Shown piece after piece: positions 4,150-63,386 of a stretch of DNA of 64,000 nucleotides (position 1 is the stretch's first letter; each line of letters begins with the position of its first letter). The stretch is from assembly GCA_021234155.1 (NCBI GenBank), contig JAJEKV010000775.1, positions 1 through 64,000 of the forward strand, read 5' to 3'. Under the pieces are notes generated by a model, which searched no databases, had not been told where the DNA came from, and worked only from the letters and a program-made list of their open reading frames with translations. A program made the position numbers and the translations under genes. The DNA is from Isoetes taiwanensis (Eukaryota > Streptophyta > Lycopodiopsida > Isoetales > Isoetaceae).

Positions 4150-4220
4150 CTCAGGGAGCTGGAAGATTGCCTAAGCAGTGGAGAGCAAACTTGTAGGGTG
4201 CTAAATGAGAAATGGAGGAC

Positions 4221-4669: not shown

Positions 4670-4799
4670 TCGTCTCAATTTTGCTCAAAAACTCCAATTT
4701 TATCAAAACAACGCTAGAATTCTATAACTTAACTTAATTAAGCTAGATTAAACACATTACTTACCCACAAAATTCTTTATATTAACAAAATTTTCTGTT

Positions 4800-23383: not shown

Positions 23384-25099
23384 TCACACAACTTTAAGTG
23401 CATTTCTAAAGTGTACAAATTTGCTTTCTGCCAATGCTTTTGTGAATACATCTGCTACTTGATCAGAGGTATTCACATACACTAATTTGACATAATTCTT
23501 TGAAACCATATCTCTGATAAAATGCATATTTAACTCAATATGCTTTGTTCTCTCATGGTCAATAAGATTTTTAGCAATGGCTATACAACTTTGACTGTCA
23601 GTGAATATTTCTGTAGGTGCTATCTGTTTGCAATTTAATTCTTCTAATAACCTTCTCAACCATGCAATTTCCCTTGCCACTGGAGAGGATGCTGAATATT
23701 CAGCTTCCGCTGAAAACATTGCTATGGCACTCTGTTTTTTACACTTCCAATTAATTGCTCCTCCTGCTAAGAATACCACATAGCCTGAGGTAGATTTTCG
23801 TGAAGCCAGATCTCCACCCCAATCTGCATCACTATAAGCATAAATATTAAGATCCTTTGAATCAAACATTATTCCATGATTTATGGTACCCTTGAGATAT
23901 TTTAGTACCCTTTTCCCTGCCAACCAATGTTCTTTAGTAGGATTGTTGCATTTTCTGCTCAAGATGTTGACTATGTAAGAAATGTCAGGTCTGCTATTGT
24001 TAACTAGATACAATAAACATCCAACCAATTCTCTATAAGGTATCTTCTCCATTTCTTTCATTTCTTTTTCAGTCACCTCCTTTTCTGCTGTCAGTTTATG
24101 CCCTGGAACCATTGGTGTTTTGACCACATGAGCGTCTACCAAATTGAACCTGTTTAACATATTATCAATTTGTCTGCTTTGAGTTAACTTCAGCCAGTTC
24201 TTTTCTCTATCTCTTGTGACTTCAATGCCCAAGAAATGTTTTAACTCTCCCAAGTTTGTCATCTTATATCTGGCTTTCAATATATTTTTGCACAGATCCA
24301 AGGTTTTAGTATCATTAACAATCATGATACAATCGTCTACATACAAGGCTATAATACAATACTTGTTCTTAACCTTGTATCTATATATATTCCCATCATT
24401 TTGCATTTTCTCAAAGCCCTGTTCTTTGAGATAATTATTTATGCACGGGTACCATTCCCTTGGAGCCTGTTTTAGCCCATAAACTGCTCTATTCAATCTC
24501 CATACCTTATTTTTGCCCTTTTCATAACCTGGAGCTTGCTTCATATAGACTTTTTCATCTAATTTTGCATTTAAAAATGTTATTTTCACATCCATGTGAT
24601 GTAGTTCTAGATTTAATGCATTTGATAATCCCAAAAGTACCCTTATACTAGTAAGCTTCACAATAGGTGAATAAGTTTCTTCAAAATCTTTCCCTTTCTT
24701 TTGTGTAAAACCTTGAGCAACAAGACGAGCTTTGTACTTTTTTGTACCATTCACTCCTCCTTTAATTTTAAATATCCATTTACTGCCAATTATATTGTGA
24801 TCAGCTGGGTAATCAACAAGTTCATAAGTTTCTGTCTCCTCAAATGATAAAAGTTCATCCTTCATTGCTTCTTCCCAGTTGGTTTTATCTGGGCAAGTTA
24901 ATGCCTCATCTATTGTCCTTGGAATGTCTCCATCTGCTACTAATGCCATGATCTGATCATAATCATGACCTAAGGTTTCAAGTCTTTTACTTCTGCCTGT
25001 GTCAGTTCTTCCATAAATTTCTTTGTCTATGTTGGCTTCCTCCAACAGCCTTTCAACTTGTGATCTCCTCTTGTTTTTGCCATCTGGGTCAAAGCACAA
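23384..25099 (-). CDS. Copia reverse transcriptase-RNase H
   Basis: An open 571-codon frame, the best preserved ORF in the window. The RT domain runs from about residue 75 with NWEEAMKDEL, WIFKIK, KARLVAQGFTQ, the DVK-x-x-FLN segment, GLKQAPREWY, and the catalytic YVDD at residues 253-256. RNase H follows with YSDADWGGD, the SAEAEY acidic site and TDSQSCIAIAKN, ending in the HIELNMHFIRD and DVFTKAL motifs of Copia polyproteins. DVKTAFLNG is changed to DVKITFLNA. The frame opens just inside the nested TIR-like insertion at 25085, so it has lost its connection to the integrase and cannot be made as a normal polyprotein. Confidence 0.85.
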   Translation of the reverse strand: MCFDPDGKNKRRSQVERLLEEANIDKEIYGRTDTGRSKRLETLGHDYDQIMALVADGDIPRTIDEALTCPDKTNWEEAMKDELLSFEETETYELVDYPADHNIIGSKWIFKIKGGVNGTKKYKARLVAQGFTQKKGKDFEETYSPIVKLTSIRVLLGLSNALNLELHHMDVKITFLNAKLDEKVYMKQAPGYEKGKNKVWRLNRAVYGLKQAPREWYPCINNYLKEQGFEKMQNDGNIYRYKVKNKYCIIALYVDDCIMIVNDTKTLDLCKNILKARYKMTNLGELKHFLGIEVTRDREKNWLKLTQSRQIDNMLNRFNLVDAHVVKTPMVPGHKLTAEKEVTEKEMKEMEKIPYRELVGCLLYLVNNSRPDISYIVNILSRKCNNPTKEHWLAGKRVLKYLKGTINHGIMFDSKDLNIYAYSDADWGGDLASRKSTSGYVVFLAGGAINWKCKKQSAIAMFSAEAEYSASSPVAREIAWLRRLLEELNCKQIAPTEIFTDSQSCIAIAKNLIDHERTKHIELNMHFIRDMVSKNYVKLVYVNTSDQVADVFTKALAESKFVHFRNALKVV

Positions 25100-25112
25100 T
25101 ATAGTGTCTCAA

Positions 25113-35259: not shown

Positions 35260-35861
35260 GGCATTGAAACATTCTTGCATAATAACATGTTTTCCTCATT
35301 TCTCACGCTTCCTCTGTCTTCTCTTTTTAAGGTCTCTTGCTCTGCTGTTCTCTTCTTTTTCCCCTTTGACTTGCTTGCATCCCCATCTCCCATGTTTAAC
35401 TATGAAGATGAAGAGAAAGGATTGATGCTTACTGATATCTTTGGCCTTGTGGGATGGCTTCAACAAGGTGGTCTCAATCTGAAAAAAGATGCTCTAAGTT
35501 TATCTAGTATATCCAACGGCAATAAGAAAGTGGCTTTGAAATCTTTCGTTTGCTCCAATTCGTTAACAAGGGAGCTTCCATTTCATTGCTTTGCAAGAAA
35601 TTTTGTAAAAGAATTTGAGAAGTTTTTCACTTAGTACTTATTAGGTTCACGATTTTGGCATGGCCGCATCAGTAAGTCTTGATTCATGGGATCATCCTCA
35701 CGGTACAAGCCGAGACCACCGACTCGATAGCAGAAGGCGGGATAGAATCTTTGGCCCAGGTTCTTCGCAGTGAATTTTCAAAATGTTCTCGTGGCAAAAG
35801 AAGTTAGTTGGGACGACCTACTTTTCGAACTAGTTTGGGGGGCGAGGGGGGACAAAGCTAA
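35260..35861. other. Right subterminal region of the nested element
   Basis: It includes a plus-strand open frame (35236-35634) with no recognised domain, then G-rich sequence leading to the right terminal repeat. It probably contains the promoter of the minus-strand gene. Confidence 0.25.
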
Positions 35862-35889
35862 TTGAGACGCTATTGCATGCTTTAACCCA

Positions 35890-37229
35890 CTTGTTTCTTC
35901 AATGTTGCTCCCATGTAGGTCCTGTTCTGTCATTTGCATGTTCTCTGTACGGTCTGCTTCAACTATTTCATTATTCTCAGCATCTAATACTGTATCTATT
36001 GGTTTTCTACAAGTTTCTTCAATTTGATCCCTGTTTGCTTCAGCCTTTTTCTTTTGCTGTCTATCTTTATAAATAACATTTTCATCAAACAATACATCTC
36101 TACTGACTATTATTGACTTTGAGCTTGGGACAAAAATTCTGAACCCTTTACTTTCTTCATCATATCCTACTAGATACCCGATTTTAGCTTTGTTATCCAG
36201 CTTTTTTCTCAACTCAGAGGGTATGTGTGCATATGTTAAGCATCCATACGCCTTAAACATGTCATAATCTAAGTTATTTGACCAGACAAGTTCAGGAATA
36301 TTACCTTGTATGCTTGAAGATGGCAGTCTATTTTGTATTGTCACAGCAGTCTTCAATGCTTCCTCCTATAGGTAGTTGGGCAGACCACTAGCCTTAATCA
36401 TTGATCTGACAGCATCCATCAAGGTCCTGTTTCTTCTTTCTACAGCACCATTCTGCTGAGGAGTGTACCTACAAGTCAATTGCCTTTTTATCCCATTAGC
36501 AATGCAAAAAAGTCTGAATTTTGAGGACAAGTATTTTCCTCCTCTATTTGATCGAATGCACTTCACCTTTTTTCCAATTTGTCTTTCCATTTCAGTCACA
36601 TAATGTTTAAAAGCATTCAATGCTTGTGATTTTCTTTCTAAGCAATAGCATTTGCATTTTCTTGAATAATCATCTATGAATGATATAAAATACCTTTTGT
36701 TTGATTTTCCTCTCACATTTAGTGGTCCACACAAGTCAGTGTGCACAAGTTCCAATATTTCTCCTACTCTATTCTTACTTCTTTTAAAAGGTAACCTGTT
36801 AAGTTTTTCCAATGCACATCCTTCACAAACTAATTTCCCTGGGTCAGCACTATGGCATTCAATCCAACCTTTCTTGGCTAAGCTCTTAATATTGTTAAAG
36901 TGAGTGTGAGCTAACCTGTTATGCCACAATTTGAAATCTGGAGTACACACAGTATTAATTTCATTGTAAACTGAATTTTCCAACTGAAAAAGGTTCCCAA
37001 CACGTTTTGCAATAAACTTCTTTTCATTTCCCATAAAGATGTTACATCCTTGAGAGTCAAAATTGACTCTATATCCAAGATCTACTAACTGACTAACAGA
37101 AATCAAATTTTTAATTATGCTAGGCACACATAATATATTTTCAATGTCAAGTACATTCCCTTCTAGGTCTGTTAACTGCAATAATTCTCTTCCTTCGATG
37201 GTTTGCAAAGCTCCATTTCCCACTTGCAC
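35890..37229 (-). pseudogene. Copia GAG-pre-integrase and integrase
   Basis: The 37229-36366 frame carries the pre-integrase region (ENILCVPSIIKNLISVSQL), the HHCC zinc site (LWHNRLAHTHF, then CEGCALEK), and the catalytic core with HTDLCGPL, FIDDYSRK and NGAVERRNRTLMDA, giving the D,D,E residues. A stop separates it from 36356-35890, which continues with PELVWSNNLDYD, KAYGCLTYAHIP, GYDEESKGFRIFVP and SRDVLFDENVIY, the usual C-terminal integrase region. The last codons of the open frame (35889 onward) belong to the nested element's terminal repeat. Confidence 0.8.
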
Positions 37230-37470
37230 ACTTCTTGTATGATTCTTGGAGACTTTCTTGAGTAGATCAGTACTTTGTACTACTGATCTTTCAGTTCCAC
37301 TATCAACTATAAGAGAATGAGAGGTTTTGTTAGCAATCTTATCATCAATTATGGCAAATGCATTGATTACCTCTTCCTCATCTTCAGTACACTCTTTGTC
37401 TTCTTGTTCATGCTCCTTAGCAATGAAAGTTCCAGCAGGTTTTCTTCCCCCTTTGCCTCTTGTATCTACC
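37230..37470 (-). pseudogene. Copia aspartic protease
   Basis: The minus strand shows LIVDSGTERSVV (about 37313-37278), the DSG-T active site of retroviral-type aspartic proteases, followed by the link into the pre-integrase region. Upstream to 37470 it is acidic and has a stop near 37473, so the frame is broken. Confidence 0.55.
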
Positions 37471-37472
37471 TT

Positions 37473-38120: not shown

Positions 38121-39250
38121 ATGGATTCTTTAGGAGGTGCTAGACAATCCAGTGGAGTTGGAGTTAGTGGAACTCCTGATGTAGCTGCAATTCTGCAAAC
38201 TATTCAGCAAGTGTTACAGCAGAATGCCTCTCAAGAAAAGACAAAATCTGACAAGGCAGTAGAGAAGGTTTTGAAGGATACCAAGAGAGAAGTTTTTACT
38301 GGGGAAAACGTCACAGGTGATGATGTTGATGCATGGTTGCGTGGTGTCGAGTTCTATTTTAATCTCATCCATGCTGAGGATTCCGTCAAGTCTGTATTGG
38401 CTCAAGCAAGGATTTGCTAGGGTATGGTGGGAGAATCATTTGCGTGATCTAAATAAGGTAGCGGGCCAGGCTACATGGGAAGAATTCAAGAGCGCATTTG
38501 AGGGACACTTTAGGGTAAAAGAATGCTAGGGTGTCCTACATTTGGCCAAATGTAGAGTAAGAGATGTATCACATTTCAAATACATAACCACCGCCTCCTA
38601 TAATTTCGAATGGGTAACGTGGCTAATCCCAATAATTCCATATCCCAACCAACTTTAATTAAAAAAGAAAACAATAATAGGTGCCTACATTATCCTACAT
38701 TATACGTAATGTAAGGGCATTTTTTTTAGACACCCTAGCATTCTTTTACCCTTTATGCCTCCAGGATACAAGGTTGATAAGATGAATGAATTTCTAGACT
38801 TAACGCAGAAGGGTACTGTGACCGAGTACAATGAGAAGTTTAGGACATTGCAATACCATTGTCCTTTTGATGACAAAGAGAAACTGTGTGCTAGATTTGT
38901 GAAAGGTCTTCATGTGGATATTAGAAGCAGTACGTCTGGTGTAGCTTATAAAGACCTAGAGGAGGTAGTTTGGATCGCTAAGCGTGAAGCTGATCTTGTT
39001 GAGAAGGTAAGGCTGGAGGCTCAAAGAAAAAGGCAGCACCTTCCACATGGCAGGCTGGAAACGTCATGAGTAAAGGTAGATCCTTTCATTGAGAAGTTAT
39101 GGTTGCACGGGCTATGAGTGCCCAAGGTGGTCAAAATCAGGGAGGTCGTTCCGCACTTGCGCCATTGACTGATGAAACTAGGGCGAACTGTATCAGTGAG
39201 AACTGATGTTTTAGATGTCGAGAGGTTGGGCATTATGGACGAGATTGCCC
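38121..39250 (+). pseudogene. Gypsy gag, interrupted by MITE
   Basis: Gag starts at MDSLGG and has the usual pre-retrotransposon-gag fold: REVFTGENVTGDDVDAWLRG, a frameshift at about 38410, WWENHLRD and WEEFKSAFEGHF. The MITE follows, then 38755-39069 (KVDKMNEFLDLTQKGTVTEY, LCARFVKGL). The zinc knuckle CFRCREVGHYGRDC lies at 39207-39248 in another frame. In intact relatives these form one ORF of 350-400 residues. At least two frameshifts plus the insertion have broken it. Confidence 0.75.
38513..38751. mobile_element. 239-bp MITE with perfect 23-bp TIRs and TTTA duplication
   Basis: The ends 38513-38535 and 38729-38751 are perfect inverted repeats (outer 20 bases GGGTAAAAGAATGCTAGGGT). TTTA lies on both sides (38509-38512 and 38752-38755). 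Removing the insert and one TTTA restores continuous gag sequence. It contains no ORF. It is a non-autonomous DNA transposon. The 4-bp TTTA duplication does not fit the usual TTA/TAA of Tourist-type elements exactly, so the superfamily is open. Confidence 0.9.
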
Positions 39251-39257
39251 AAGGACA

Positions 39258-40058
39258 ATGTGGGCAGATAGTACAGCCTCATCCGCTGGTCCTCAACGTG
39301 AAGGATGTCCAAATCAATGGTCTAGACAAAATAGTGCGTATGGACAAGGTCAAGGCAGAGGAATGCAGGGGAAAGGAAATAGAGGTGGTCATGGAGGGCC
39401 TTCTAATAGCAACAGAGGGGGGCGAGGAGAACTTACAGATAATAACAGGCCAATAGTTCCAGCAAATCCGACAGTTGAAGTTAGAGCTGCAAGGATCATG
39501 GATCCTCCTGAAGAAAGGATGCATGTGTATGCTGTCGTGGATCAAGGCAATGTGGACAATCAAGCTGTGGTTATCCGAGTGCCAGGAACTCATGTTTTGT
39601 TTCTTATTGATTGCGGTAGCACCCATTGTTTTATCTCTCCAAGCTTGGTTAAGAAATTAAATTTGAATATGATTAGTCGAGTTCCCAAATATGTGGAGTT
39701 CGCTGATGGAAACATTAAGACTTCTGATTTCATGATAGAAAATGTTAAGTTCAGAATAGGGAACTTGGAGTCTCAAACTAGTTTTGAAGTATTGAGCCTA
39801 GGAAAATATGATGCTATTTTGGGGATGTCATGGTTGAAACCATGTAAGGCTCGCATTGACTCCGAAAAGCAGCTAATTACTTGTCAAGATCCTAGTGGAC
39901 ATAATTATGTTTTGGAGGGAATGCCTTCATCAACTGTTGTATCACCTTTGTCCTGGAAAGGTTTTAAGAAACAGATTAAAAGGGGTTGCGTAGATATGGG
40001 ATGTGCTGTCTTAGTCTTAGCCACAACAAAAATTACAAGAACAAGTTATTGCCCCTGA
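39258..40058 (+). pseudogene. Gypsy protease
   Basis: The open frame runs from the Gly/Arg-rich gag tail through the aspartic protease. The active site is LIDCGSTHCFIS (the usual DSGATHSFI with Ser to Cys and Ala to Ser), then FADGNIKTSDF, and the C-terminal GKYDAILGMSWL motif. The frame ends at 40058, shortly before RT begins in another frame. In chromoviruses gag, protease and RT are normally one frame. Confidence 0.8.
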
Positions 40059-40104
40059 GATTCAGCAGGTATTAAATGAGTTTTCAGATGTATTTCTTAA
40101 AGAT

Positions 40105-40782
40105 TTGACAGAATTGCCTCCACATAGGATGGTAGACCATGAGATAGAACTTATTCCAGGGGCTGAGCCCACATCCAGGCCCCCATATAGATTTCATGCC
40201 TTAGAAATGGCCGAACTAAAGAAGCAATTGGCAGAGTTATTGGATCAAGGGTTTATACGCCCAAGTACTTCTCCTTTTGGTGCTCCAGTCCTGTTTGTCA
40301 AAAAGAAAGATGGTACATTGAGGCTTTGCATTGACTATCGAATGCTAAACCACATTACTGTCAAAAATAAATATGCATGGCGTCGTGTCGATAAGATATT
40401 TGACCAGTTAGGTGGAGCCAAGTACTTCACAAAAATAGATTTGCGGTCTGGATATCACCAAATAAGGATTAAGGATTCTGACATTCATAAGACTGCATTC
40501 CGGACAAGATATGGACACTACGAATTTGTGCTGATGCCCTTTGGCTTGATAAATGCTCCTGCTACATTTATGCAGTTGATGAATGATATATTTCAGCCTT
40601 TCCTGGATAAATTTATCCTAGTATTCTTTGATGATATTTTAATATATTCAAAGAACTTACAGGAGCATGTGGAACATGTAAGACAGACATTGGCAATCCT
40701 GAGACATGAGAAATTGTATGGAAAGATATCAAAGTGCAGTTTTGCTCAACGTAAATTGGTGTACCTCGGACATATTATTTAA
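40105..40782 (+). pseudogene. Gypsy reverse transcriptase
   Basis: A 225-codon frame with [82 protein letters not shown] and the catalytic [11 protein letters not shown] (usual FIDD or YVDD, so one substitution). It ends at a stop within GHII-x-ENG. Upstream a short piece ([14 protein letters not shown]) continues the normal RT N-terminus. Confidence 0.85.
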
Positions 40783-40848
40783 GAAAATGGGGTAGAACCT
40801 GATCCTTCAAAGATAGAGGCCGTCAGAGACTGGCCAGCCCCAAAGAAT

Positions 40849-41448
40849 GTGAAGGAGGTAAGATCATTTTTGGGATTAGCGGGGTATTATCGTAAATTTG
40901 TGCCAAAATTTGCCAAAGTTGCTGCTCCTCTCACATCTTTGTTGAGTAAGAAGAATGCTTTGGTTTGGACAGAAAGTTGCCAAGAAAGCTTTAAAAAATT
41001 GAAGGATGCATTGACTACAGCGCCAATTTTAAAGATTCCTAATATGAGTAAACCTTTCCATATAGTCACAGATGCATCAGGAAAAGCTATTGGTGGAAAC
41101 TTGTTGCAAGATGGCCGAGTTTGTGCTTATGAATCATGCAAGTTATCTCCGGCAGAGCAGAATTATCCAGCGTATGATTTGGAAATGCTAGCTATAATTC
41201 ATGCCTTGAGGGTATGGAGGCATTACTTGTTAGGTCAGCGTTTCTTTTTAAAGACCGATCATCAGAATTTAAGGTATTTTGTTAAGCAGCCACATTTAAA
41301 CAACCGACAGCGACGGTGGATGCAGCTACGGGAAGAGTATGACTTTGAGATTGAATATCAGCATGGAAAAGAGAATGTGATAGAAAATGATTTGTCTCGA
41401 AGGTCATTTCTAACCTCTATCAGTGTGCTTCAAGGTCAATGGATGTAG
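40849..41448 (+). pseudogene. Gypsy connection and RNase H
   Basis: This continues the RT after one stop in the same order: [35 protein letters not shown] (first RNase H Asp), [19 protein letters not shown] (Glu site), [12 protein letters not shown] and the end [14 protein letters not shown]. Key acids are present. The frame overlaps the integrase frame by a few bases (41439-41448) because of a frameshift. Confidence 0.85.
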
Positions 41449-46499: not shown

Positions 46500-46921
46500 T
46501 GTAGTTTTTGGTATGATATATAGATATTAGGACATTTTGCATCTACTTCTTCAAACTTCCAGTGCTTATCTATGTTGGTAGCATGTTAACTGACACATGT
46601 CTAAATGTCTGACACCGCTATGGTCTATAAGTTCCAGAGCATGTGGTCTCTAGGTTTGAAATATCCTAATGATAATATTATTCCTATCTCTACGTTATCT
46701 ATTCCATATTGGATGCCCTGTTAGCTGTTTTATTATCGTTGCTTCAATTTCTTATTAGTTGTAATGCACATTGTAATTACTGAACTATAATATATAATGT
46801 AATAATTACGACTAGGTTCACATTTTTAAGAATCCGAAAAGACCATATTGTGTGTGTGTGTGTGTGTTTTTTTTTTGGACCAACACAAACCATTGTCCCT
46901 TTACACTTACGATTAGATTCC
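46500..46921. other. AT-rich spacer with (GT)n, left flank of the 8.8-kb element
   Basis: No gene. A (TG)8 run and poly(T) lie at about 46850-46877. The last four bases, TTCC (46918-46921), are repeated just outside the right terminus of the neighbouring element (55733-55736). Confidence 0.5.
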
Positions 46922-46951
46922 AACAAGGTTTAAAATGAAACGCACTTATTT
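46922..46951 (+). repeat. Left terminal inverted repeat of the 8.8-kb element
   Basis: Thirty bases (starting AACAAGGTTTAAAATGAAAC) match the complement of 55703-55732 at 28 of 30 positions. Directly inside is a hairpin AAACGCACTT...AAGTGCGTTT (46938-46964). Confidence 0.8.
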
Positions 46952-47404
46952 AAGAAGTGCGTTTGAAAGATTCCTTTATAAAAATTGAAAACTTGAAAAA
47001 AACAGACAAAATAGGGAGCAAAATAGATTGTTGAGCAATTAGCATTCGAAATACCCCCAAAAAAGCAACATTTTTGAAGCCTTTTCATTTTTAAAAGAAG
47101 GCAAAAAAAAAAAAAATGCTTGTTTTGAGGAGAGAGACATTAAATTTGAAAACTCAATAAGTATTTATTGTTGAAATTAGAAGGAAATATAGTTTGTCTT
47201 TTTGCAAGCTTAATATAAGTACTAAGAAAATCAAACATAGGAAAGACAAAGAGTGTGAAATCATGGAGCAAGAAAGAGTTGTTCTAATTAAGCATTGTTG
47301 AAGAGACAAAGCTTTCAGCTTAAAAATCTTCATCAAAATATATTATAATATACTTAGCACATAGTTTACAATGAAAGTTAGTTTATAATCCTGACTGTAT
47401 AAAT
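46952..47404. other. Left subterminal region and 3' flank of the minus-strand gene
   Basis: AT-rich non-coding sequence between the terminal repeat and the stop codon at 47405-47407. One exact palindrome core (GTATAAATTTATAC, 47397-47410) overlaps the stop. Confidence 0.5.
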
Positions 47405-47619
47405 TTATACGGGAGGTGGAGGAGGTGGGTCTTCCCAGTCCACAGGAGTCTCGTACCCCTTAGGATCTGTCTCTTGCGAGGGTACAATAGCAGAGACGCC
47501 TGCTTCTGATTCCAATGCTACGAGGCGGTTTCTCGGGCTCAGGCACCACAGGCTCCGGGTCGACAAACTCCACATCCTCATCTCTTCTTCCCGTAAAAGG
47601 AAATTTTGGATTTACGTAT

Positions 47620-48110
47620 ATGTGCCTTTAACATCGCCAAAGACCGTTCTTTGCTCGGTTCTCGTTTTCATGGAAAGGATTCACAAGAGCTTATCCTAGT
47701 CCTGATGAAACTTATTTTATCCGGGTCTATGTCGACAGAGACAACATTGCGCCCACAGCAAGGAAAGCTAAGTGGTGCGTGAGTGAAAATGCATCCAAAA
47801 TCCGGTCTCGGGAAAAACCATCAGTATTAAATTATTAATTAGCCTCGCGGGTTTCGATAATGGGATACCACAGTAGCTTTGTCACGTGGGTCTCTCAATT
47901 TTGCGAAGCAGTAGGAACCGAAAAGCATTGCGGGGAGGAGTCTTCTCATTCGCGTATTGAAATGAGCAAGTGGTCTTTTTTGGCGTCCGTATTTGTAAAA
48001 CCTATATGGAAATGCTCAAAGCAACTTACTAAAAAGTGGACCACCACCATGTCCCTTAACATTTGTTTTAGCACGCCAAACAATGGTGATTAAAAATTAG
48101 TAGAAAGAAA
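47620..48110 (-). pseudogene. DNA methyltransferase-like domain (N6/N4 type)
   Basis: Minus-strand reading across two frames gives SKPARLINNLI, then RILDAFS-x-TH-x-x-LA and GRNVVSVDIDPDKISFIRTR (47790-47660). In N6-adenine/N4-cytosine methyltransferases of the beta arrangement, EKP-x-x-LI, the AdoMet loop (D-x-F-x-G-x-G-T) and a strand-2 acid (V-x-V-D-x-D) follow in this order at the C-terminus. Here the glycines of the loop are degraded (FSLTHH). The catalytic DPPY/SPPW motif should lie upstream; DVCLSHW (about 48360) is a possible but weak match. HIGFTNTDAKKDHLLISI (48020-47955) may be the region preceding it. Confidence 0.4.
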
Positions 48111-48143
48111 ACAAAGAAAATAAGTTAGTTCGATTGGTGTGGC

Positions 48144-48277
48144 GGTATAAATTTATACCACAATTGCCTTCTTTGTATAAACTTATACCACGGTGCCGTG
48201 TCCGTATAGATTTATCTGAAGGTTGCCTTCTTTGTATAAATTTATACCCACGAGGCAATTTTGTATAAATTTATACC
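48144..48277. repeat. Palindrome cluster 1 (five units, intronic)
   Basis: Units start at 48144, 48175, 48204, 48234 and 48263, i.e. 29-31 bp apart. The first is the perfect GGTATAAATTTATACC; the second and third carry one or two changes. The cluster lies in the putative intron after donor 48320. Confidence 0.85.
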
Positions 48278-49056
48278 GAGGTGTTACTGATAAATGAAAA
48301 GCAATAAATTTAAAGCTTACCATACGCAGTTTTGAAGCCGGAGTTATGAGGCCGACTCCCAATGGCTTAAGCAGACATCATCTGCGGTCGGAATGAAAAA
48401 TGATGACCCTCCGGTTTGCGGATGTCGTGACTTCCTTCGGCCGTCAAAAAGCATCGGACTTACGCGTGCGTGAAGGCCTCCCTCGTCAAAAGCGCTGATA
48501 TGGAATATCACGCGAATGCCTTTGTGTAAAATTTTGCTTGTCAAAAGAGTTCTCGACCTCGTGCAATCTCCACTGAACAACCACAGCCAAAGCGAGTCGA
48601 CCATATGTTGTAAATCTCTCATAGCTAGTGTCAAAGCTGCTAGTGCCGACTTCTTTTCCTGCTCAATTGCCTTGGTCTACCGCCTCTCCTCCTTGGCCCT
48701 ACAAACCAGGTTTTAAAAACACATTTGGTAGCCCTTTCTTCTTGTTACGTAAGAAAAGCGTAGAGACAAAGGCACGAAAACAAAAGTATTTTACGCAAAA
48801 CTTACCCGACCCACTTTTGAAGTTAACGGCGTGCTCTCGATAATACTATCGTAGTACAAGTTGGATATAAAAAGCTTGCACTCCTCGGTCCTCGGGTTTA
48901 GTTGCTTCATTAACTTTCGGCTGGCGGGTGACAACGTCTTTTCGGCTGCGAGAGGGAAAAATGTTGTAAGACAAAATGAGGGAAAAAAGAACCGGCATAG
49001 CAAAACGTGGCTTACGTCTTAGCTTTCTTGGCCATTTCGTCTAGAGTGAATTCCTT

Positions 49057-49503
49057 ATCAGCTTCCTTTTTCTAGCCTCAATCTCTATCTGCAACAGTAC
49101 CTCTTGCCATAATCCCAGTTGCTCAGTACATAATCTTTCTCTTGTCTAACACTTCAAACAGGTACTTGGAGTTCAATTTTGTACTTGCAGGATTTTGGAG
49201 CTCGTTTGGCCAGATGGAAATCTTCAATTCAGCAAGCTGTACCCGACTTACTCTCTTTGGTTCAAATCGGCATTCAAGATAATTTTCTCTTTGAGAACAA
49301 CGACACTTTACGGTCTTTTGTACTTTTGGTGACTTGTTACTGTCTAAACATTATGCTCATTCCATGAAGATACTTCTTTATTTTATCTCTAAGATGTAAC
49401 TAATGGGAAATCTTGTTCCTTCATTAGTTGCACATATATGTATGGCTTTTATTAATTAATGGAAAAAACATCTCTTAACCTCAAAAAAAAAAAAAAAGAA
49501 AAA
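49057..49503 (+). mobile_element. 447-bp retroposon with poly(A) and 14-bp target duplication
   Basis: AGAGTGAATTCCTT occurs at 49043-49056 and again at 49504-49517. Between them is a sequence ending in A-rich tail (AAAAAAAAAAAAAAAGAAAA). Removing it restores the minus-strand exon frame (KEFTLDEMAKKAK). Its own plus-strand frame (49179-49367, YLQDFGARLARWKSSIQQ) looks like the extreme 3' end of a LINE ORF2, so it is a 5'-truncated LINE or a SINE derived from one. Confidence 0.8.
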
Positions 49504-49809
49504 AGAGTGAATTCCTTGGCCACTACTTTTTCTAAGAGTCGCACAAAAATTTATTTGCTTTTTAAACCCTGTAGCTGCGTCCAGGGTACAATGCTCATGT
49601 TTTTTTGTTTTGCTTCACCACCTTTCTTTGGTTTTTTTCCTGCAGAGCTAGCTTGTTCTTTCAGCTCACCATCCTCGAACATACAAAATATTCTTTCTTG
49701 AAGATCCCACACCTGTTAATAATCGAACACAAGTAGTTTAGTGTTGAATGGCGTACAAGTGTTTGTTCTTGCTTGATCTGGTCTAAATGCACCGCGGTGG
49801 CACAGTCGC

Positions 49810-49885
49810 GGTATAAATTTATACCGTGTCCAGGCACTGTTTAAATTTATACCGTGACCAGGCTTCCATGGTTGGTGTGAATTTA
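49810..49885. repeat. Palindrome cluster 2 (intronic)
   Basis: One perfect GGTATAAATTTATACC at 49810-49825, then half-degenerate units at about 49840 and 49873 keeping a 30-bp step. The cluster lies inside the putative intron 49713-49960, which has clean GTAAGT and TTAACAG ends. Confidence 0.8.
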
Positions 49886-50045
49886 TAAAGTTCGATGTTA
49901 ATACACAAATTAAGCTATGCTAAGCATACTACAGAGGACTAAATTAAAACTTTTACTTACTTGACCATCTCTGAAAGCAATTTTGGAAGTAATTGTAAAT
50001 CTTGCTTCATGACCATTATGGGCTTCTTATGCGAATCATGGCACT

Positions 50046-50480
50046 CTACGTGACACAAGCTTCTCGAAGTTCTTGGAGCTTGTTTTTTTGGTTTTTAAAG
50101 TCCTCTCCATGCACTTGTTTGAACTCCACGTACTCTCGGTGCATAAAGCGGATCTTGTCTATTAGGCTCATTTTCAATCTGAAGTCATTGTCGAGATTAT
50201 GACTCACGGCAATGACTTTTGCTTCTTCATCTGTTACACCCACGTAAATATGCGCTTCCAGGCTCTTCCACACTTCGTTACGGCTTTCTTCCTTTGATAG
50301 TTCTTTCCTTGCCTTGTAACCATGTGTGCCTCCAAGAACATAATAGGTGTAATCTTGAAGTCGACCTTTTTGTAATCTTTTAATTGGTTGTGACCGACTC
50401 TGTCAACCATTACAACTAGTGGCGACACATGGGCATGAGGATTCCTTCTCATTCTTTGCTTGGTATAGCCACATGTGCGC
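50046..50480 (-). pseudogene. ParB-like (N-terminal nuclease fold) domain
   Basis: Two overlapping frames give SPLVVMVDRVGHNQLKDYKK, DFKITPIMF, a THGYKARKEL segment (GGTHG in the alternative frame, like the GGHR/GNHR box of ParB), VWKSLEAHIYVGVTDEEAK, VAVSHNLDNDFRLKM and IRFMHREYVEF. The order (conserved hydrophobic strand, G-x-H-x-x-x-A-x-x-L, then a TDEEA helix followed by HN) matches the ParB/Srx-like fold used for DNA-linked NTP binding or nuclease activity. In phages this fold is often joined to DNA methyltransferases. A frameshift splits it at about 50290. Confidence 0.5.
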
Positions 50481-50652
50481 GTTCGACTTAGAACACGAAG
50501 CACTTTCGACACCATCTTCATTTTTAGGTGGCCTCTTTATAGTGCTCAATGTCAAAGAAATGGTTTGCTTGAGCGGTTTAGTGTCATTAACCCGTTTTAA
50601 AATAGCACTTGACTTATCTGCGGGCTTCACAACAATATCTGCTCCAGGAGCC

Positions 50653-50904
50653 TTACGGAGAGCCTGTGACTCCCTCTATAGTCAAAGGTCTTTGTGGTTC
50701 TTGACTTTTTTTTTTGGTGGGAGGCGTGTATCTGTTACCAATGCGACTCTCTTGCTCCCTCCCTTTTGTTACCACTGGTTCCTCCTCTTCCTCTTCTTCT
50801 TCTATTTCCTCGTCCTTCTCTAAATCTTCGTTAGGAATGGGGTACCAAAGACCTTTGACCATGACCTGTTGCTCACAAAGTACTACTGACATCAAAATGT
50901 CCAC
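50653..50904 (-). pseudogene. Exon with acidic linker of the ParB-methyltransferase gene
   Basis: It reads VDILMSVVLCEQQVMVKGLW, PIPNEDLEKDEEIEEEEEEE and a Lys/Pro-rich tail. It begins after a probable acceptor (CTAAC branch, GGGACATAG) and joins to the exon 2 end at 50987 (FNGY-like donor GTAAGT). A frameshift links it to the ParB-like frame upstream of 50640. Likely a flexible linker between an N-terminal domain and the ParB-like domain. Confidence 0.45.
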
Positions 50905-51407
50905 TATGTCCCATGTGAATGCGAGGTTTAAGTTAGGAGGATGGCCGGTATAAATTTATCACGTAAAGCCACTAAGAACAACTTACATAGCCATTCACGT
51001 AATTTTTCGCTATGTAGTCATACCGTCTTTAGGGTTTGCACATGCTTATTCTAAGCATTCTACTATTCGAGAATATAGTAGACTTCCCCATCGTCATTCA
51101 TGCACTTCATCAAAAGTTCATTTTCATTCTCAGCAGCAATGATGGGTTTACCACTTCGCCGGCAGGGTAATAATCATTAGTCTTATACTTGCCCCTCCCT
51201 CACTGATTACACAAATAAAGGTACGCTCCAGTGGGTTTGCTCTCCCTTGCGCCCTTGTGGGCGTACCACGTCCAGTCTTTCAGTTCATAAACGTGGCTCT
51301 CTTTGGGGGCAGCCTTTGATGGTTGGCCTTTCTGTGTAAACTTGATCCTGGGGCTGGAAAAAGCGTAAAAAAACCCATTAAACACTCGACACCAATATTG
51401 TCTTCTC

Positions 51408-51761
51408 GTATAAATTTATACCCATGTGTCTACCTAGTTGTTGTTGAAACGCCTACTGTGTTTTGAAACGGTATAAATTTATCTCCCCGGCTTCTGGCCG
51501 GTATAAATTTATCCGTTCGAAGAATACGGTCGGTATAAATTTATCGCCAGAACACGCAGCGGTATAAATTTATATAAACGAACGATTTGCGGTATAAATT
51601 TATACTAGAATGTGTTCGAAGGGTATAAATTTATACCGCTCTTCTTCAGGGCATATAAATTTATCAAGAATGTGTTCTGAGGCGGTATAAATTTATACCG
51701 CTCGTGCTTGGAGCGTATAAATTTATACCATTTCAAAACCATTTCGGTATAAATTTATACA
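51408..51761. repeat. Palindrome array 3 (11-12 units, intron 1)
   Basis: Units begin at 51408, then regularly at 51470, 51500, 51532, 51561, 51591, 51622, 51653, 51684, 51714 and 51746, steps of 29-32 bp. Most have the core TATAAATTTAT; ends are TATACC or TATC. Spacers are unrelated or weakly related (GAATGTGTTC appears twice). The array lies inside the putative first intron of the minus-strand gene (51354-51827). Confidence 0.9.
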
Positions 51762-51869
51762 GAACGAGCTTAGACTGAACAGCTTAAAAGATAGGAGAAA
51801 CTAGAATAGTACGGATTAGAGACTTACGTGGCCATGGCCGTATGGTGCTTATAGCCAATGGTGAGAGCA

Positions 51870-51886
51870 ATTTATATATATATAAA
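51870..51886. promoter_or_regulatory. Divergent TATA region
   Basis: TTTATATATATATAAAG reads as a TATA box on both strands. It is about 40 bases upstream of the minus-strand ATG (51835) and 385 bases upstream of the first plus-strand ATG (52269). Palindrome arrays lie on both sides. Confidence 0.45.
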
Positions 51887-52013
51887 GGCTTGGACCGACG
51901 CTCCGGCGTATGGAGAAAATAGATCGGTCGGCAAGGCAAAAGTACCCCTTTTCGAGCCTTTTAGTATAAGCGGTTCTCCATAAACTCTCCCATACAAGTA
52001 TCTGTGAATTTTC

Positions 52014-52206
52014 GTATAAATTTATACAGTTTTTGTTCTGAGTTGCTCTTCTCTGTATAAATTTAAACTATCTCTGTATAAATTTATACCATCTCTGTAT
52101 AAATTTATACTGTCTGCTGCGAGAAGTTGCTTTGTCCAGGCACAAATTTATACCTTCTACGTATAAATTTTTATACCGTCTATACATTAATTATAAATTT
52201 ATACCG
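52014..52206. repeat. Palindrome array 4 (promoter/leader of plus-strand gene)
   Basis: Seven units at 52014, 52055, 52075, 52097, 52143, 52160 and 52190, with more variation in sequence and spacing (17-46 bp) than array 3. The last lies about 65 bases before the first plus-strand ATG, so it would be in the promoter or 5' leader. Confidence 0.85.
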
Positions 52207-52268
52207 TATGGCTAGAAAAAAAATTTGCGAGAGCCCCCCACTCCTGCTTTCGTAGGCTTCCTCCTTCG

Positions 52269-55262
52269 ATGACTTTCACACCTCCTCAAATGTCCCCAGG
52301 AAGTAGCCACAAAACTTCTATTCTGATATTCAAAGCCCCAGCCCAGTTCAGTATACTCCACCACGACCACCTCGGCTTCCACCACCGGTTCAATTTACTC
52401 CACCACACCCCGCTCACAAGGCGTCGTTTGCCTTTACCGTCGTTTTACTCCACCACAGGCTCTGAGGCTCCGGACTCCCTCCTCCAGTTCATTTTAGTAC
52501 GTCTCCCATAGTCCAGCGTAGACCGCCTCCCCGGAGCCATATCACCCCAACTCCATCCATTTCGTTAGTTGACACTACAATAAGTGGAGGCAGTCGGCGC
52601 CATGCAACTCCAGTATTCTACGACACTTCAGGAACTGGTCAACTACGTCACCAACCTTGACTACTTTTTCCTAGAGAGAGGGCTAGCAGCTCCCCTCAAG
52701 ACTTGCCCACAGTAAACCTCTCATCTACTAGTACGCCATCTGTTGGTCCCGTGTCAGACGAAGAAACACCTCATGTTGATCTCTCAGACGAGGATTTACC
52801 GAAGCCACAAGACTCTATGTTCGAATTCAAAGCTCCTCCAAGTAAAAATCTTAGGCGAGATTTGCACAAGAAAGCATGTGCATCCCAAAGAAGAAAAAAC
52901 TTATGGGCCGAGGGGCTCACTTGGGGGCAACACATACAAAAAAACATTTGCTCTCAACATTGTTTGCTTAAGATTGGACTAAAGGAATTGAGGTTGATTC
53001 GTGATAGTTCTGAGTTCAATGACTTTGTTAGACCAAAGGGACTACTTAGCCTTCAATATTAGGGGCGATTATGGTGAAAGGTTTACTTACACGGTGGTGT
53101 TTTGCGGAATACGTCAAGCGACCTTCAAATTGATTCATGCTTTAGGCGTGACGACTTGACCGCCTTTAAGAAAAGGCTTGACAAGAATCCGGCATTAATG
53201 ACTACACGCCACTCGGGAGGTATATCCGAATTCATGCCCTTCAATGTGTTTCTGGATGGAAGATTTCTTTAAGGAGTCTTGCGAGAAACTCCCTAACAGC
53301 CCTATGTACCACTTGAGTGACGGGCTTTCACGAAGCGTGAAGTCGATAATTATAAGAACATGTGTGTTGAGGCTAGAGAATGCCATGTATGCTACTCTTA
53401 CTTCAACGTGCTCTGGAAAAAAAGAGTTTTTCGGCGTGTCCATAAAGCTTGGGATGTCATTTTGTGCTACATGCTCGAATTAAAAGCTTAGAGACAAAAT
53501 GCAAGGACACTTCACACTAAAAGTAAGCTTCGGGGATGTGTTCTTGCCTAGTTCAACTTAAAAGTAGGTTCTTTCCTAAACATGTTTTCATTTTCGGATG
53601 CATTGAAAGAAAGCGAACAAGCACGAGAACAACAATCTTTGGAAAGGAGAAAATTGACAAAACATAGGAAGAAACCTTTGGAACAACCACTCAACTACAT
53701 ACAGGTTGTTATTGATGGAATGGACGAAGAAGACCACCCTACCACATTTTGTCAATGTGCCTAAGGATCTTCTTGAAGAAGATTTCATACACGCATGTTG
53801 TTGGTGCTATGGTATTTAATGGAAAACTATCTTGCAAGGCATTTTTGAACTATCCAAACATTCATGCTGATCCAAATCTCACTATCACAATATTGAATAA
53901 GCTTCTTTCCAATCTAGAACATATACCACTGGTTCTGTATCTTCAGCTTGACAACACGACAAGAGAAAATAAGAATCAGGCGTTGTTTGCTTACTGTGCT
54001 ATGCTAGTTGAGAAACAAATCTTCAAGAAGGTGAAGATTGGTTTCCTGCTTGTTGGTCATACACACGATCAAATTGATCAGATGTTCAGTAGGTTCTCTA
54101 AGCGTCTTGCTCGAAAAAAAGCACTCAGCCTCCCAGCAATGATTGAGGTTATCCAAGATTCCTACAATCCTCGTCCAGACATCGAGTTATTAGAAGAAAC
54201 TTATGATTTCAAGGAATGGATTTTTCGGAGAGATCACTGCGCTATTGAGCCCTTGAGAAACATTACATTTCAGCATCAGATCAAAATTTCACTTGTAGAT
54301 GGCAAGGCCAACTTACAAGGAAAGAAATATGCCACATCCTTGCAATGGCAGCCAGCAGCAGGTATTCAATTCATTAGCACCATCCCAATACTAATTCCAT
54401 GCTCTCTGCAGATCAAATGCCTCTAAAAAGCTTGAAAGAAATCACAAAGAGTAAAAAGGAGGGAAGAGCATTTGACTCAAACAAATCATTGGATTACATT
54501 GAGACAAGTATTGTGGTCGTGCTCTAACCACTTTGGGGGCGAGATGCTTTATGGTGGCCTCAGTTTTTTTTCTCGACAGCGTGACATGTTGCAAGCTTTA
54601 TTACAAAGGTCGAAGACCGGTTACATTCAGCGGCCATCTAGGCAAACTCTCCCCTGTGCAAGTCGAGAATCAAGAGGAACATGTAGAGATATTGGCTAGC
54701 TTAGATGAAGATGTGAGTCATGTACAGCGGCCCCGGGCATGCGGCACAACAAGTTGCTTTCGAGTCTACGGTTGAGTCTCGGAGATTGAGAAAGGAATGC
54801 TCATAGCTGTCCCGGTGATAATGATGAATCACGGGAAGCCATTACGGCTAGCTAAAATGCTTGGAGGTAACAAGAGAGGATGGAATTCCCACTCAATTAA
54901 AAGTGCAATCTGGATGAGAACAAATCGCCAATGCTTTCGATTGGGAGTTATACTTTGGAGATGGTAAAAGCGGGATTTGGAAAAAGAGCAAAGTCCAAAG
55001 CAAACACTCTTTGTCATAGATCTAGCTGAAGTAAAGGTTCTTGCATATGACTTTGTTACATTTGCTGCTAATAAGTTACGTATGGTCACTCAAACTTTAA
55101 TAAAGGTCGGCATGTGGATTAGACAAACAACCTAGAAAGATGGCCAAAAAAGATGATGATGAAGACTCACTTGTAGGCGGTGAGGGAAGAAGATCGTTCG
55201 AAGTACATCCGGTTTTGAGAGTGAAGGCGAGGATGAAGGCTCAAGTGATCGGGGATTAAATG
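52269..55262 (+). pseudogene. DUF7869-like gene, probable transposase
   Basis: A Pro-rich N-terminal part (52269-52680) is followed by an acidic linker and a conserved region (52703-53062, with AEGLTWGQH). Next come a frameshifted region (FTYTVVFCGIRQATFKLIHA, then ESCEKLPNSPMYHLSDG) and FNVLWKK with VILCYMLELK. The core is VVIDGMDE (53710s), FLNYPNIHADPNLT, LYLQLDNTTRENKNQ (Asp at 53950-53952), FLLVGHTHDQIDQMFSRF (54043-54096) and a tail to 55262. The DGMD, QLDN and GHTH-x-x-ID acids are spaced like a DDE/RNase H fold; that function is my inference. It has at least five frameshifts or stops. Confidence 0.6.
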
Positions 55263-55702
55263 AGTCGAGGATGAGATGCATCACGATATTCTTTGCAAAA
55301 TGTAAGTTTGTCAGATGGCTTCGAACATGTAAAGAACGAGAAAGTCACGGTGGTGAGTGTTTGTTAAAATGTCCTATATTTTTGACAATTTTGTTCATAA
55401 TTTTGTACAATTTTCACAACCTTGAATATATCACTTCTTTGTCAATCTACTACCCTTGCTATTTTTTTTATTGCCCCTTTTTTGCTACACTTTATATAAG
55501 TAACTATTTTTTGTTCTAAATTAGGAGGATGAAAATTGCTATTTAAAATTTTTGCATGGAAGTTATGTTCAATCAACCCCTCAAAAAGGGTACCTAAATT
55601 ACCTAAATTGTCACACCTATCACAAAAAAACCTTAAAAATGGACTTTTTAAGGGGAATTTTAGGGAATCTTTTAAAGATTCCTTTTGAAGTGCGTTTGGA
55701 GC
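55263..55702. other. Right subterminal region of the 8.8-kb element
   Basis: AT-rich, non-coding, with repeated ACCTAAATT and a GGGAATCTTTTAAAGATTCCC palindrome at about 55662-55683. Just inside the terminal repeat it has AAGTGCGTTT (55689-55698), the same decamer found inside the left end in inverted relation. Confidence 0.45.
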
Positions 55703-55732
55703 AAATAAGTGTGTTTCATTTTAAACTTTGTT
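55703..55732 (-). repeat. Right terminal inverted repeat of the 8.8-kb element
   Basis: The complement of this 30-base block matches 46922-46951 at 28 positions. TTCC follows at 55733-55736, as it precedes the left end. Confidence 0.8.
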
Positions 55733-55736
55733 TTCC

Positions 55737-59945: not shown

Positions 59946-61492
59946 TCAGCTAACACAACTGACAAGGCTACTCCTGTGGGCATTCATATTTCTACCTCCG
60001 ATGCTTGGGATATTATCATAGAAGGGCTGCGAAAGCATTTGTTTTCGTGGAATACTGCTAAGCTCTCTCTGCCAGCACGAATAACTGTTGCTAAGCATGT
60101 TTTAAGTGATTCCCATGTCTATATGGCCTCTGCCCTTCTGGCTTCTCAGTCAAAATTTCAGTTGATTGTTACCATTGTCCATAATTTTATTTGGGGGGGA
60201 CGAGGAGCATGCTGTGGTCAAGGTTGCATGGTCCAAATGCACTAGGCCAAAATTTGCAGGTGGTTTGGGTATGTATGACTTCCATCTGCAGAGTAAGATT
60301 CTGATTTTTAAGTTCATTTGGAGGATCCTTAGGGATATGCTTGACTCACCTGGAATGAGGTTGATGAAGCAGTCACTTGCACATTATGTTCCCTTTGGGA
60401 AAGCTTCGTTAAAACCTCTTTTTCCTTGAAGTCTCTTTTATCAGCTATGCCCTTTTCCTAATGCCTCCCCTTTTTTGAAAGGCTTGCTGGAGTCTTGGGA
60501 GATAATACGGACCTTATTTCGTATTGATCTTGTTGCATGTCATCAGTTGAGTGCCCCTTGTTGGTGGATACCTGTGAAAAATAATCTTCCACTTTGTGAT
60601 CCATTAAACTCCTTACCTTTGGAGGTTAGCGAGGAATCTTAGCCGATTCGGCATGGTATGATTCTGGCCAATTAGCAACATGGCAAATCTTTCAAACAAA
60701 ATTCTTATTGTCTCGATGGGATAGATCTATTTGGCAAAAGGTTGCTAGTACTCTGTCATTGGTTGCTCCAGAGGCTATTGAAGTGTGCATGTGGGTTTCT
60801 CACAAAAGTGTGCACGAGCATAGGCTTGTGAGCTCTGTGTATAGGTTGCTGGTCAATGGTGATATCCTTCTGCAATCCACTAAGTGGTCCCTTCAGCTCT
60901 CACCTCCTAGTTGGAGACGAATGTGGACTTGGGCTTGGGATAAACTACTCCATCCTAAGGTGGTTGTGTTTTGGTGGCAGATTCTTCACAGATGCCCGCA
61001 TGTGAATGTGCTTGTCCACAGATTTGATCCTCAAGTGTCAGCACTCTGCCCACTGTGCAAGCAAAGGGACGAGACCATTGAGCATTGTTTCTTTTTATGT
61101 GATCAGCTCCGACTGTTTGGTCTTGGGCTTTCTCTTTTCATGTGACATTGACAAGTCGGCCAAGTGCTTACGGCTATTTATCGATACTTGGAATAAGTTG
61201 TGGAGCCAAGCATTTCATTTAGCATCCAGGGATGGTTCTTTGTGGTCTATCAGGCTTGAGAAGGTGTGTATCTTCGGGGTTTGGATATTCCTCTAGAATC
61301 GTTAAGGCCTACCATTGTTCTTCGCTTGCTCCTGCCAAGCGACAGTTGATATTTGAGTCCTATTTGAATGTGTTGTCTTATGCATAGGCTGGTGGTTTTA
61401 CTCAGTGGATCATGATTATCCTCTGCGATTTTATTCCCTTATATCTGGCTTTTGGCTTGGGGTTTCAATAAAGTTTGTCGTTCTTCAAAAAA
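59946..61492 (+). pseudogene. LINE (L1-type) ORF2 3' end with zf-RVT domain and poly(A)
   Basis: Plus-strand pieces follow the C-terminal third of plant LINE ORF2. They include LRKHLFSWNTAKLSLPARIT, SALLASQSKFQLIV and FIWGG (59985-60200), then GGLGMYDFHLQSKILIFKF (60255-60320). The zinc-finger reverse-transcriptase-associated domain reads WTWAWDKLLHPKVVVFWWQI, CPLCKQRDETIEHCFFLC (60925-61105). It ends with an AATAAAG-like signal and a 12-base A run at 61488-61499. The polymerase and endonuclease parts are missing (5' truncation) and there are several stops. Confidence 0.75.
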
Positions 61493-61703: not shown

Positions 61704-61961
61704 GAGCTACATTCTCATATCACGCAATGTCATGAATGCCTCTCTCAATGCTACGATGGGAGGAGAATCATATCATAATATCTACACAATGCAACATCAC
61801 ATCCTACCAACGACATCTTTTTTATATTATAAAATTATAGCATGTGTCTTCAATGGAGCCCTAGATCGGACGGTCGAGGATTTGATTGACCAACGGTGGA
61901 GATGATATATGCGTGTCTTCAACTAAAATTGCTATGACTTCAATATGATTCCTAATTCACG

Positions 61962-63345
61962 GTCAAATGATGAAAGGAAAAGGGAAAAAGGGAAGGGGAA
62001 AAGGAGAGTGGAAAGGGAAAAGGGAAAAGGGGAGAAAGGACAAAAGGAAAGGGGAAAGCAAAGGAAAGAGGAGAAATGACAATAGAAAAAAAAAGGAAAA
62101 GAAAAAAAGAAATAAAAAGGGGAAGAAGGAAAGGAATAAAAAAAAAAGGTAAGGAAGAAAAAAAAAAAAGAGAAGGAGAAAAGGAAAAGGAAAAGAAAAA
62201 AAGGAAGAAGAAAAGGGATAAAAAAGGAATAGGGGAGGGAATGGGAAAAAAGGGAAAGAGAAGGGTAACAAGTAAGGGTGGGGAAAAGGAGAAAAAGGTA
62301 AAAGGGAAAATAAAGAAAAGGTTGGGGAAGAAGATGAACAAAGCTTATGGGAAAAGGAAAAGGAAAAGGAAAAAGAAAAAGAGGGAAAAGGCAAAAGAGG
62401 GCTTGGGAAAGAGAAAAGAAAAAGGGAAAAAGAAAGGGAAGTGGAAAAAGGGAAGAAAAGAGGGAAGGGTGAAGAACCAAGGAAAACAGAATCAAAAAGA
62501 GCAAAATCTAAAAGAGAGAGGGAAAGGATGGAAAAGGGAGGAAAAGGGTGGAGAGGAAGGTAGAATAGGGCAAAGGGTAGGAGCAAGGAATAGATAAAGA
62601 ATAAAATAAGAATAGATTTTTAGGCGCCCAAAGAGGAAGGCGAAAGCAAAAGACCTTTGGAAAAAAGGAAGACGGAAAGAGGTGAGGAAATGGGGAAAAG
62701 ACAGGAAAAAGGAGTATGAAGGAAGAGGAAAAAAAAAAAAAGAAAAAGGGAAAGGGGAAAGGAGAAAGTGGAAAGGGGAAAAGGGGAAGAGGATGGGGAA
62801 AGAAGGGAAAAAGGGGCACATAAAAAGGTTAAAAGATACAAAGGGAATGGAAAGAGGCATATAGAAAAAGACAAAGGAAGGGGAAAGGGAAAATGAAAAA
62901 AAAGGAAGATGAAAAGGGAAAAAAAAAAGGGAAAAAGAACCACGAGCAAAACGAAGGGGTGGGGGAAAGTATGAAAAGTGGAAAGTTGAAAGAAAAAAGG
63001 AAGGCGAAAAAAGGAAAAAAAGGAAGGAAAGCAAAAAAGGGCATAAGGAGGAAAGGGGAGGGAAATGGAAAAAAAAGATGGGAAAAGGGCCAGGAAGAGG
63101 AAAGTGGGAAAAGGAAGAAAAGGCACATGAAAAAGGTAAGCAAAAGAGAACAAAAAAAATGCATGGAAATGGGAAAGAGAAAAGGAAAGGGAAAAGGAAG
63201 AGGAAGAGGAGAGGGGGGAAAAGAAAAGGAAAAAAGGGTAAGTGGCAAAAGGAAGGGAAAAAGGCAAATCTAAAAAGAGAAAAAAAAAAAGGGGAAGGGG
63301 AAGGAAGGTAAAGGGAGGGAGAAGGGGGTTAGAAAAAAGAAAAAA
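61962..63345 (+). repeat. 1.4-kb polypurine tract
   Basis: Nearly 1.4 kb of almost only A and G on the plus strand, in units such as GGGAAAAGG, AAAGGAAAAG and GAAAAAAGG, broken by rare C/T. It has no period strong enough to call one satellite unit. All ORFs in it (Lys/Arg/Gly/Glu-rich on plus, Phe/Ser/Pro/Leu-rich on minus) are products of composition. Confidence 0.9.
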
Positions 63346-63386
63346 GGGAGAATGAATAAAGGGAGAATTTAAAGGTTCCTAATTTA

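Follow-up and report, generated by a model that had tools for sequence, protein, structure and literature searches.

A decayed two-gene transposon

We analyzed a window of 64,000 nucleotides from Isoetes taiwanensis (GenBank assembly GCA_021234155.1, contig JAJEKV010000775.1, positions 1 to 64,000), in which positions 46922 to 55732 are, almost certainly, one decayed copy of a DNA transposon that has terminal inverted repeats and is abundant in the genome. The element holds arrays of one palindrome and two divergent genes, one for a DUF7869 transposase and one for a predicted ParB-like protein fused to a DNA methyltransferase (hereafter, the ParB-methylase). Its left terminal repeat (46922..46951, + strand) matches the right one (55703..55732, − strand) at 28 of 30 positions, and the two pair only with each other, no further match being present in the window at up to 8 mismatches. 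The target-site duplication TTCC lies directly outside both ends (46918..46921 and 55733..55736). Inverted ends, TTCC flanks and two divergent multi-part genes were all as an initial annotation of this DNA had described them.

That annotation had also called the element a plant DNA transposon and expected further copies with the same ends and 4-bp duplications. Both expectations held in the genome (1,658,258,908 bases in 1,110 contigs), where there are many copies, some with both ends seen. The left 69 bp returned 1,137 first-look candidates, with 40 of 40 scored copies 100% identical, and the right 69 bp returned 1,146, with 40 scored copies at 97-100%. A 4-bp duplication was exact in six of the seven copies with both ends seen (the window, TTCC; C1018, ATAG; C922, ATTT; C24, CCAA; L054, ATAG; L056, AAAT), the other being L055 (CCCG/CAGG); this count omits L039, L040, L057 and L058, which have one end only, and L049, whose right end was not found within the 1.1 kb fetched. 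Besides the window copy, full-size copies measured 8,846 bp (C1018), 8,600 bp (C922) and 9,434 bp (C24).

The window copy is broken by frameshifts in both genes and by a 447-bp insertion with a poly-A tail (49057..49503, + strand) inside a ParB-methylase exon. The insertion is bounded by the 14-bp repeat AGAGTGAATTCCTT (49043-49056 and 49504-49517) and looks retroposed, as a short interspersed nuclear element or a processed pseudogene would be; the two frames of it that were tried gave no Pfam match.

The transposase gene remnant spans 52210..54874 (+ strand), as delimited by PF25273 and by tblastn with the frame of locus L041, in which the transposase is open over 987 amino acids and the ParB gene is disrupted. 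Conserved matches cover 52949-53731, 53794-54387, 54384-54572 and 54770-54874, preceded by a proline-rich N terminus placed by eye from about 52210. The piece at 53716-54426 matched PF25273 (E = 6e-53), and a fold match to its structure model indicated an RNase-H-like core with three acidic residues, as expected of DDE/D transposases and integrases. The transposase assignment of the initial annotation is thereby strengthened by fold evidence supplied here, which indicates that DUF7869, a domain with members in both plants and animals, is an RNase-H-fold DDE-type transposase core. A sequence search of the DUF7869 alignment against the PDB gave nothing meaningful, and a literature search for the name found no paper.

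On the opposite strand, the ParB-methylase remnant (47656..51349, − strand) was traced by tblastn with the less decayed copy L040, giving matches at 51349-50987, 50928-50677, 50765-49965, 49733-49512, 49056-49015, 48953-48354 and 48081-47656. The window gene is frameshifted and its methylase motif I is altered; its own ParB and methylase pieces had no Pfam match above the cut-off. Read by eye, the L040 gene has about six exons: an N-terminal domain is followed by a ParB-like exon, then by linkers, and finally by a permuted methyltransferase that an intron interrupts. The L040 methylase matched N6_N4_Mtase (PF01555, E = 6.5e-16), aligned with CcrM (E = 2.8e-10) and has motif IV before motif I (ADIPYG ... 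DAFSGSGTT, with D-x-P-Y and FxGxG), so its assignment from sequence to the beta-class N6-adenine/N4-cytosine methyltransferases is secure. The N-terminal domain (WYTHRGARERYPT...; about 4413-4859 reversed in L040, 51349-50987 in the window) matched nothing in Pfam; it may serve to read DNA or chromatin.

The ParB-like domain is likely on sequence grounds, but not secure, so that the gene named in the initial annotation stands firmly in its methyltransferase part and less so in its ParB part. Its profile matches are sub-threshold, and its structure model is low in confidence (predicted local distance difference test, pLDDT, 42.6). Against a ParB identity, an unrelated model, IgA0_D2, scores 0.0035-0.016 in family 1. 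The nucleotide-binding GERR-type motif is canonical for the ParB-CTPase fold, and by eye it is not conserved here, its place being taken by GGTHSYKAR or GGNHSFKAR. The sub-threshold profiles were phrog_723 (0.012) and phrog_6392 (0.036) for family 1, and TIGR03764 (0.0052), DUF6551 (0.0018) and phrog_723 (0.18) for a second family described below; in phages, according to a survey of ParB folds (PMC12704722), DUF6551 is a ParB-fold fusion partner. The ParB alignment found nothing meaningful by sequence in the PDB, and among viral contigs none of its 189 pattern matches was confirmed; with the decayed window region as homolog query, 0 of 1,044 candidates was confirmed. Phage matches were distant (12 records, best E = 1e-7), and the eight of them listed cover the methylase only. 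A search that gave a single match found a fern protein, from Adiantum nelumboides. It resembles ours, in the same order, at the end of the ParB region (46% identity over 135 amino acids) and at methylase motif IV (30% over 122).

We next measured how closely the two genes travel together among the listed matches, which are the best of thousands of candidates for each gene, with 115 of the 155 DUF7869 matches used. An opposite-strand DUF7869 match lay within 12 kb of 32 of the 150 scored ParB matches, 26 of these pairs being spaced at 3.4-4.2 kb, and no pair remained after a 500-kb shift. Of the 40 left ends, 14 had a ParB match within 12 kb, in 13 cases at a distance of 2.6-3.7 kb, and 8 of 40 right ends, the window's included, lay by eye 1.3-1.9 kb from a listed DUF7869 match. 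A ratio of nonsynonymous to synonymous polymorphism (pN/pS) of 0.052 in the ParB domain, over 465 pairs from 31 copies, points to strong constraint, with the reservation that the copies were chosen by protein similarity.

The window copy is also a mosaic. Its transposase half (52470-55732) is 87-89% identical to L039 and L040, and its ParB-methylase half (46922-51400) only 66-78%, as if gene modules had been exchanged; the palindrome array that the copies share may be where this happened.

Palindrome arrays in two families and in gene-less copies

The window contains 27 sites within 2 mismatches of GTATAAATTTATAC, and 25 of them fall inside the element, with 2 outside it in the 64 kb, in agreement with the arrays of one palindrome first noticed in this DNA. 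The main array (51408..52204) lies upstream of both genes and has 17 sites, with 8 of its 16 spacings at 29-32 bp. A second array occupies an intron (48145..48276; sites at 48145, 48175, 48234 and 48263), two sites (49811..49852, at 49811 and 49839) lie in the intron after the ParB exon and a single one (50948..50961) in the intron upstream of it, and the last (47397..47410) is just 3' of the methyltransferase gene, overlapping the stop codon in L040. Helical phasing of the sites was considered and rejected, as the 28-bp spacing in introns does not fit it.

Similar sites, resembling GGTATAAATTTATACC and placed in introns and between the genes, characterize what we call family 1. Its 32 loci (L009-L040, the window copy included) have 7-25 sites each within 2 mismatches of GTATAAATTTATAC, 529 in total. 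When 31 loci were seeded on both strands with the half-site GTATAAA, 738 of 902 occurrences extended into the mirror half, compared with 0 of 186 for eight permuted seeds, and information drops outside CGGTATAAATTTATACCG. Genome-wide, we counted 6,222 tandem pairs of GTATANNNNTATAC, against 33 for the control.

A second family has its own palindrome. Its locus L042 encodes a transposase 66% identical to that of the window, and its ParB-methylase has an identity to family 1 of 33-56% in five segments (46-445 amino acids) and of 60% in a short sixth one (15 amino acids); as in family 1, the ParB-methylase gene is opposite the transposase. Loci of this family carry TGTATTCCGGAATACA-type sites instead of the family 1 palindrome: L042-L046 (L043 lying inside L042) have 9-13 sites of GTATTCCGGAATAC each and no family 1 sites. 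Eight family 2 sites also occur in L041, and the family 1 loci L039 and L040 have none. In both L040 and L042, the sites are found within introns and upstream of the two divergent genes. There are 3,812 family 2 tandem pairs of GTATTNNNNAATAC genome-wide, compared with 5 for the control; in the loci and at the listed places, their spacing is often 41-42 bp start to start, against the 28-32 bp common in family 1. Genome-wide tandem pairs for other address families in the GTAT frame were at control level (GTATG, 1 and control 1; GTATC, 0 and control 0).

Arrays also occur in copies that have lost the genes. Five loci (L054-L058) were picked by eye from the listed tandem-pair places for having spacers unlike those of full-size copies, and three of them have both ends: L054 (2,168 bp, 10 sites), L055 (2,200 bp, 9 sites) and L056 (2,203 bp, 10 sites). 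L054 has no match to either gene, while L055 and L056 retain faint first-exon traces; a short DUF7869 match at L055 falls outside the element. With each of the three as reference in turn, 10/280, 10/250 and 14/278 site columns differed, compared with 91/793, 103/817 and 92/788 array-spacer columns and 285/3984, 349/4034 and 302/4020 of all non-site columns. Sites in gene-less copies thus diverge two to three times less than spacers, a comparison somewhat biased by the definition of sites by match.

Proposed self-recognition and its alternatives

Because the sites in gene-less copies are kept and less diverged, we read the palindromes as mattering in cis even in elements without genes, and they are probably sites in cis for a protein that the element itself encodes. 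Three points make the ParB-methylase the strongest candidate for this reader: its own gene contains many of the sites; palindromes this long are what ParB-type proteins recognize (typically 16 bp); and families with diverged ParB-methylases have different sites. We predict, with moderate confidence, that it is the palindrome binder.

On balance, self-recognition by the ParB-methylase through the palindrome arrays seems to us the best explanation of the whole. The DUF7869 transposase would act on the terminal repeats, while the product of the second gene, in which a ParB-like part for DNA binding would be joined to a beta-class N6-adenine/N4-cytosine methyltransferase, would recognize the element via arrays of its 16-18-bp family-specific palindrome. 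Protein binding, along with methylation nearby by the predicted enzyme activity, would mark the element's own DNA, a role of the kind that the initial annotation had proposed for the accessory gene. Every element with the address, gene-less ones included, would most likely benefit through regulation or through escape from host silencing; we give anti-silencing, rather than other regulation, somewhat less than an even chance. A stronger version, which we consider possible but somewhat short of probable, is a parS-like address code in a land plant, in which a family-specific array and a matching ParB-methyltransferase would mark, by N6-adenine or N4-cytosine methylation, only their own kind, gene-less relatives included. 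Such a code would amount to a eukaryotic self-marking system made of prokaryotic parts, and we know of no earlier eukaryotic self-marking system with a visible code.

The palindromes could instead be targets for the transposase (or for its N-terminal domain), comparable to the subterminal repeats in CACTA or MULE elements, with the ParB-methylase acting elsewhere or non-specifically. This would suit gene-less copies, which need only cis sites to transpose and which keep the arrays and both ends, and part of the array does adjoin the start of the transposase gene. We nevertheless consider it unlikely: the sites are internal rather than subterminal, being found in introns, ahead of both genes and beyond the methylase stop codon, many are within the ParB-methylase gene, and their length is typical of ParB targets. 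Still less probable is a role of the arrays as promoter or intron elements through which a host factor would promote expression. Their positions upstream of both genes and in introns would fit, but a single host factor should read one motif, and one genome here holds two families with different palindromes at similar places, each absent from the other's loci examined; moreover, gene-less copies keep their arrays.

It is also conceivable that the ParB-methylase is a passenger, captured anciently from a phage and since then without a role in the life of the element. Fusions of ParB folds to N6_N4 methylases are indeed common in phages, according to the ParB survey (PMC12704722), and distant phage matches to our protein exist. 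Strong constraint on the ParB domain argues against this, as do the linkage of the genes in family 1 and in the one family 2 locus read (L042), the relative in a fern and, by the literature, those in brown, red and green algal transposons, and we regard a passenger gene as very improbable.

The observed/expected CpG ratio is 0.80 in the element, against 0.12 and 0.20 in Copia-like and 0.45 in Gypsy-like sequences of the window and 0.57 in the rest of it. We rejected this as proof of escape from methylation, since stretches of L039-L042 range from 0.34 to 0.64 and copy age is uncontrolled; it is a hint only.

Elsewhere in the window are polyprotein frames that were classed by eye as Copia- or Gypsy-like (23384-25108, 35778-37472 and 39207-41448), and a zf-RVT domain (60630-61145, E = 1.1e-10), as in elements of the long interspersed nuclear element type. 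Long frames without a Pfam match (2843-4170, − strand) resemble by eye those found in L041 where its ParB gene is disrupted, and represent a repeat-encoded protein. About 1.4 kb of extreme polypyrimidine/polypurine sequence (61932-63378) yields long spurious frames.

Relation to known systems

KDZ transposons, which carry TET/JBP DNA-modifying accessory enzymes and make 8-bp duplications, resemble this element as DNA transposons with a DNA-modifying accessory enzyme. They differ in belonging to another transposase family and in that TET/JBP enzymes oxidize modified bases rather than methylate. We rejected KDZ membership given the DUF7869 gene, the absence of the KDZ model among Pfam matches of the element's pieces, and the 4-bp duplications. 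A 4-bp duplication is the rule for Sola elements. Sola1 is listed for Physcomitrella (PMC9033089). From the duplication and this listing, and leaving the Sola1 identity of the transposase aside, membership of the Sola1 superfamily is plausible.

Compared with VirB and ParB-parS systems, the element shows long arrays, no ParA partner was seen in it, and the nucleotide-binding motif canonical for those proteins is not conserved. VirB, a ParB-type protein that binds a specific DNA site, is a bacterial anti-silencer, and a ParB-type protein can therefore have that role (PMC10770331).

The closest relative in gene content is Sola1-1_Ec32 of the brown alga Ectocarpus, which has a ParB-like and N4mC/N6mA methyltransferase gene on the strand opposite its transposase, likewise as an accessory gene, and for which self-binding and self-modification have already been proposed (PMC12477816). 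The suggestion in the initial annotation that such an element had not been described must therefore be withdrawn as regards the gene pair. Sola1-1_Ec32 differs in its size of 21.5 kb, its 2 intact copies (from a table row) and its algal host; the passages on it make no mention of palindrome arrays, address families, gene-less derivatives or target site. The same source, citing Iyer, Abhiman and Aravind 2011 and Petroll et al. 2025, reports similar accessory proteins in green and red algal transposons (PMC12477816). We found no report in the open-licence PMC literature of palindrome arrays, of two address families, of array-keeping gene-less copies or of a vascular-plant member, and the strings "transpos" and "plant" are absent from the main text of the ParB survey, whose scope includes eukaryotes (PMC12704722). 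The palindrome system thus appears to be new, unlike the gene pair.

In function, the closest parallel is VANC of the Arabidopsis VANDAL transposons, a factor encoded by the element itself and acting with arrays of family-specific motifs; VANC is not known to resemble ParB or to include a methyltransferase. As here, its motifs are short, densely arrayed in non-coding DNA and different between related families, and VANC causes loss of silencing of its elements, but VANC motifs are arrayed in one orientation whereas ours are perfect palindromes (PMC5735166). On our preferred reading, the Isoetes arrays serve transposon self-recognition, probably with a regulatory or, as for VANC, an anti-silencing effect. 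Candidate targets of a ParB-methylase are now visible as two palindromes in one genome, as thousands of tandem pairs and in gene-less copies that keep them, which makes the self-binding proposal for ParB-methylase transposons testable. The element may also be one source of N6-adenine or N4-cytosine methylation in a plant, and it invites comparison with the anti-silencing arms race known from VANC.

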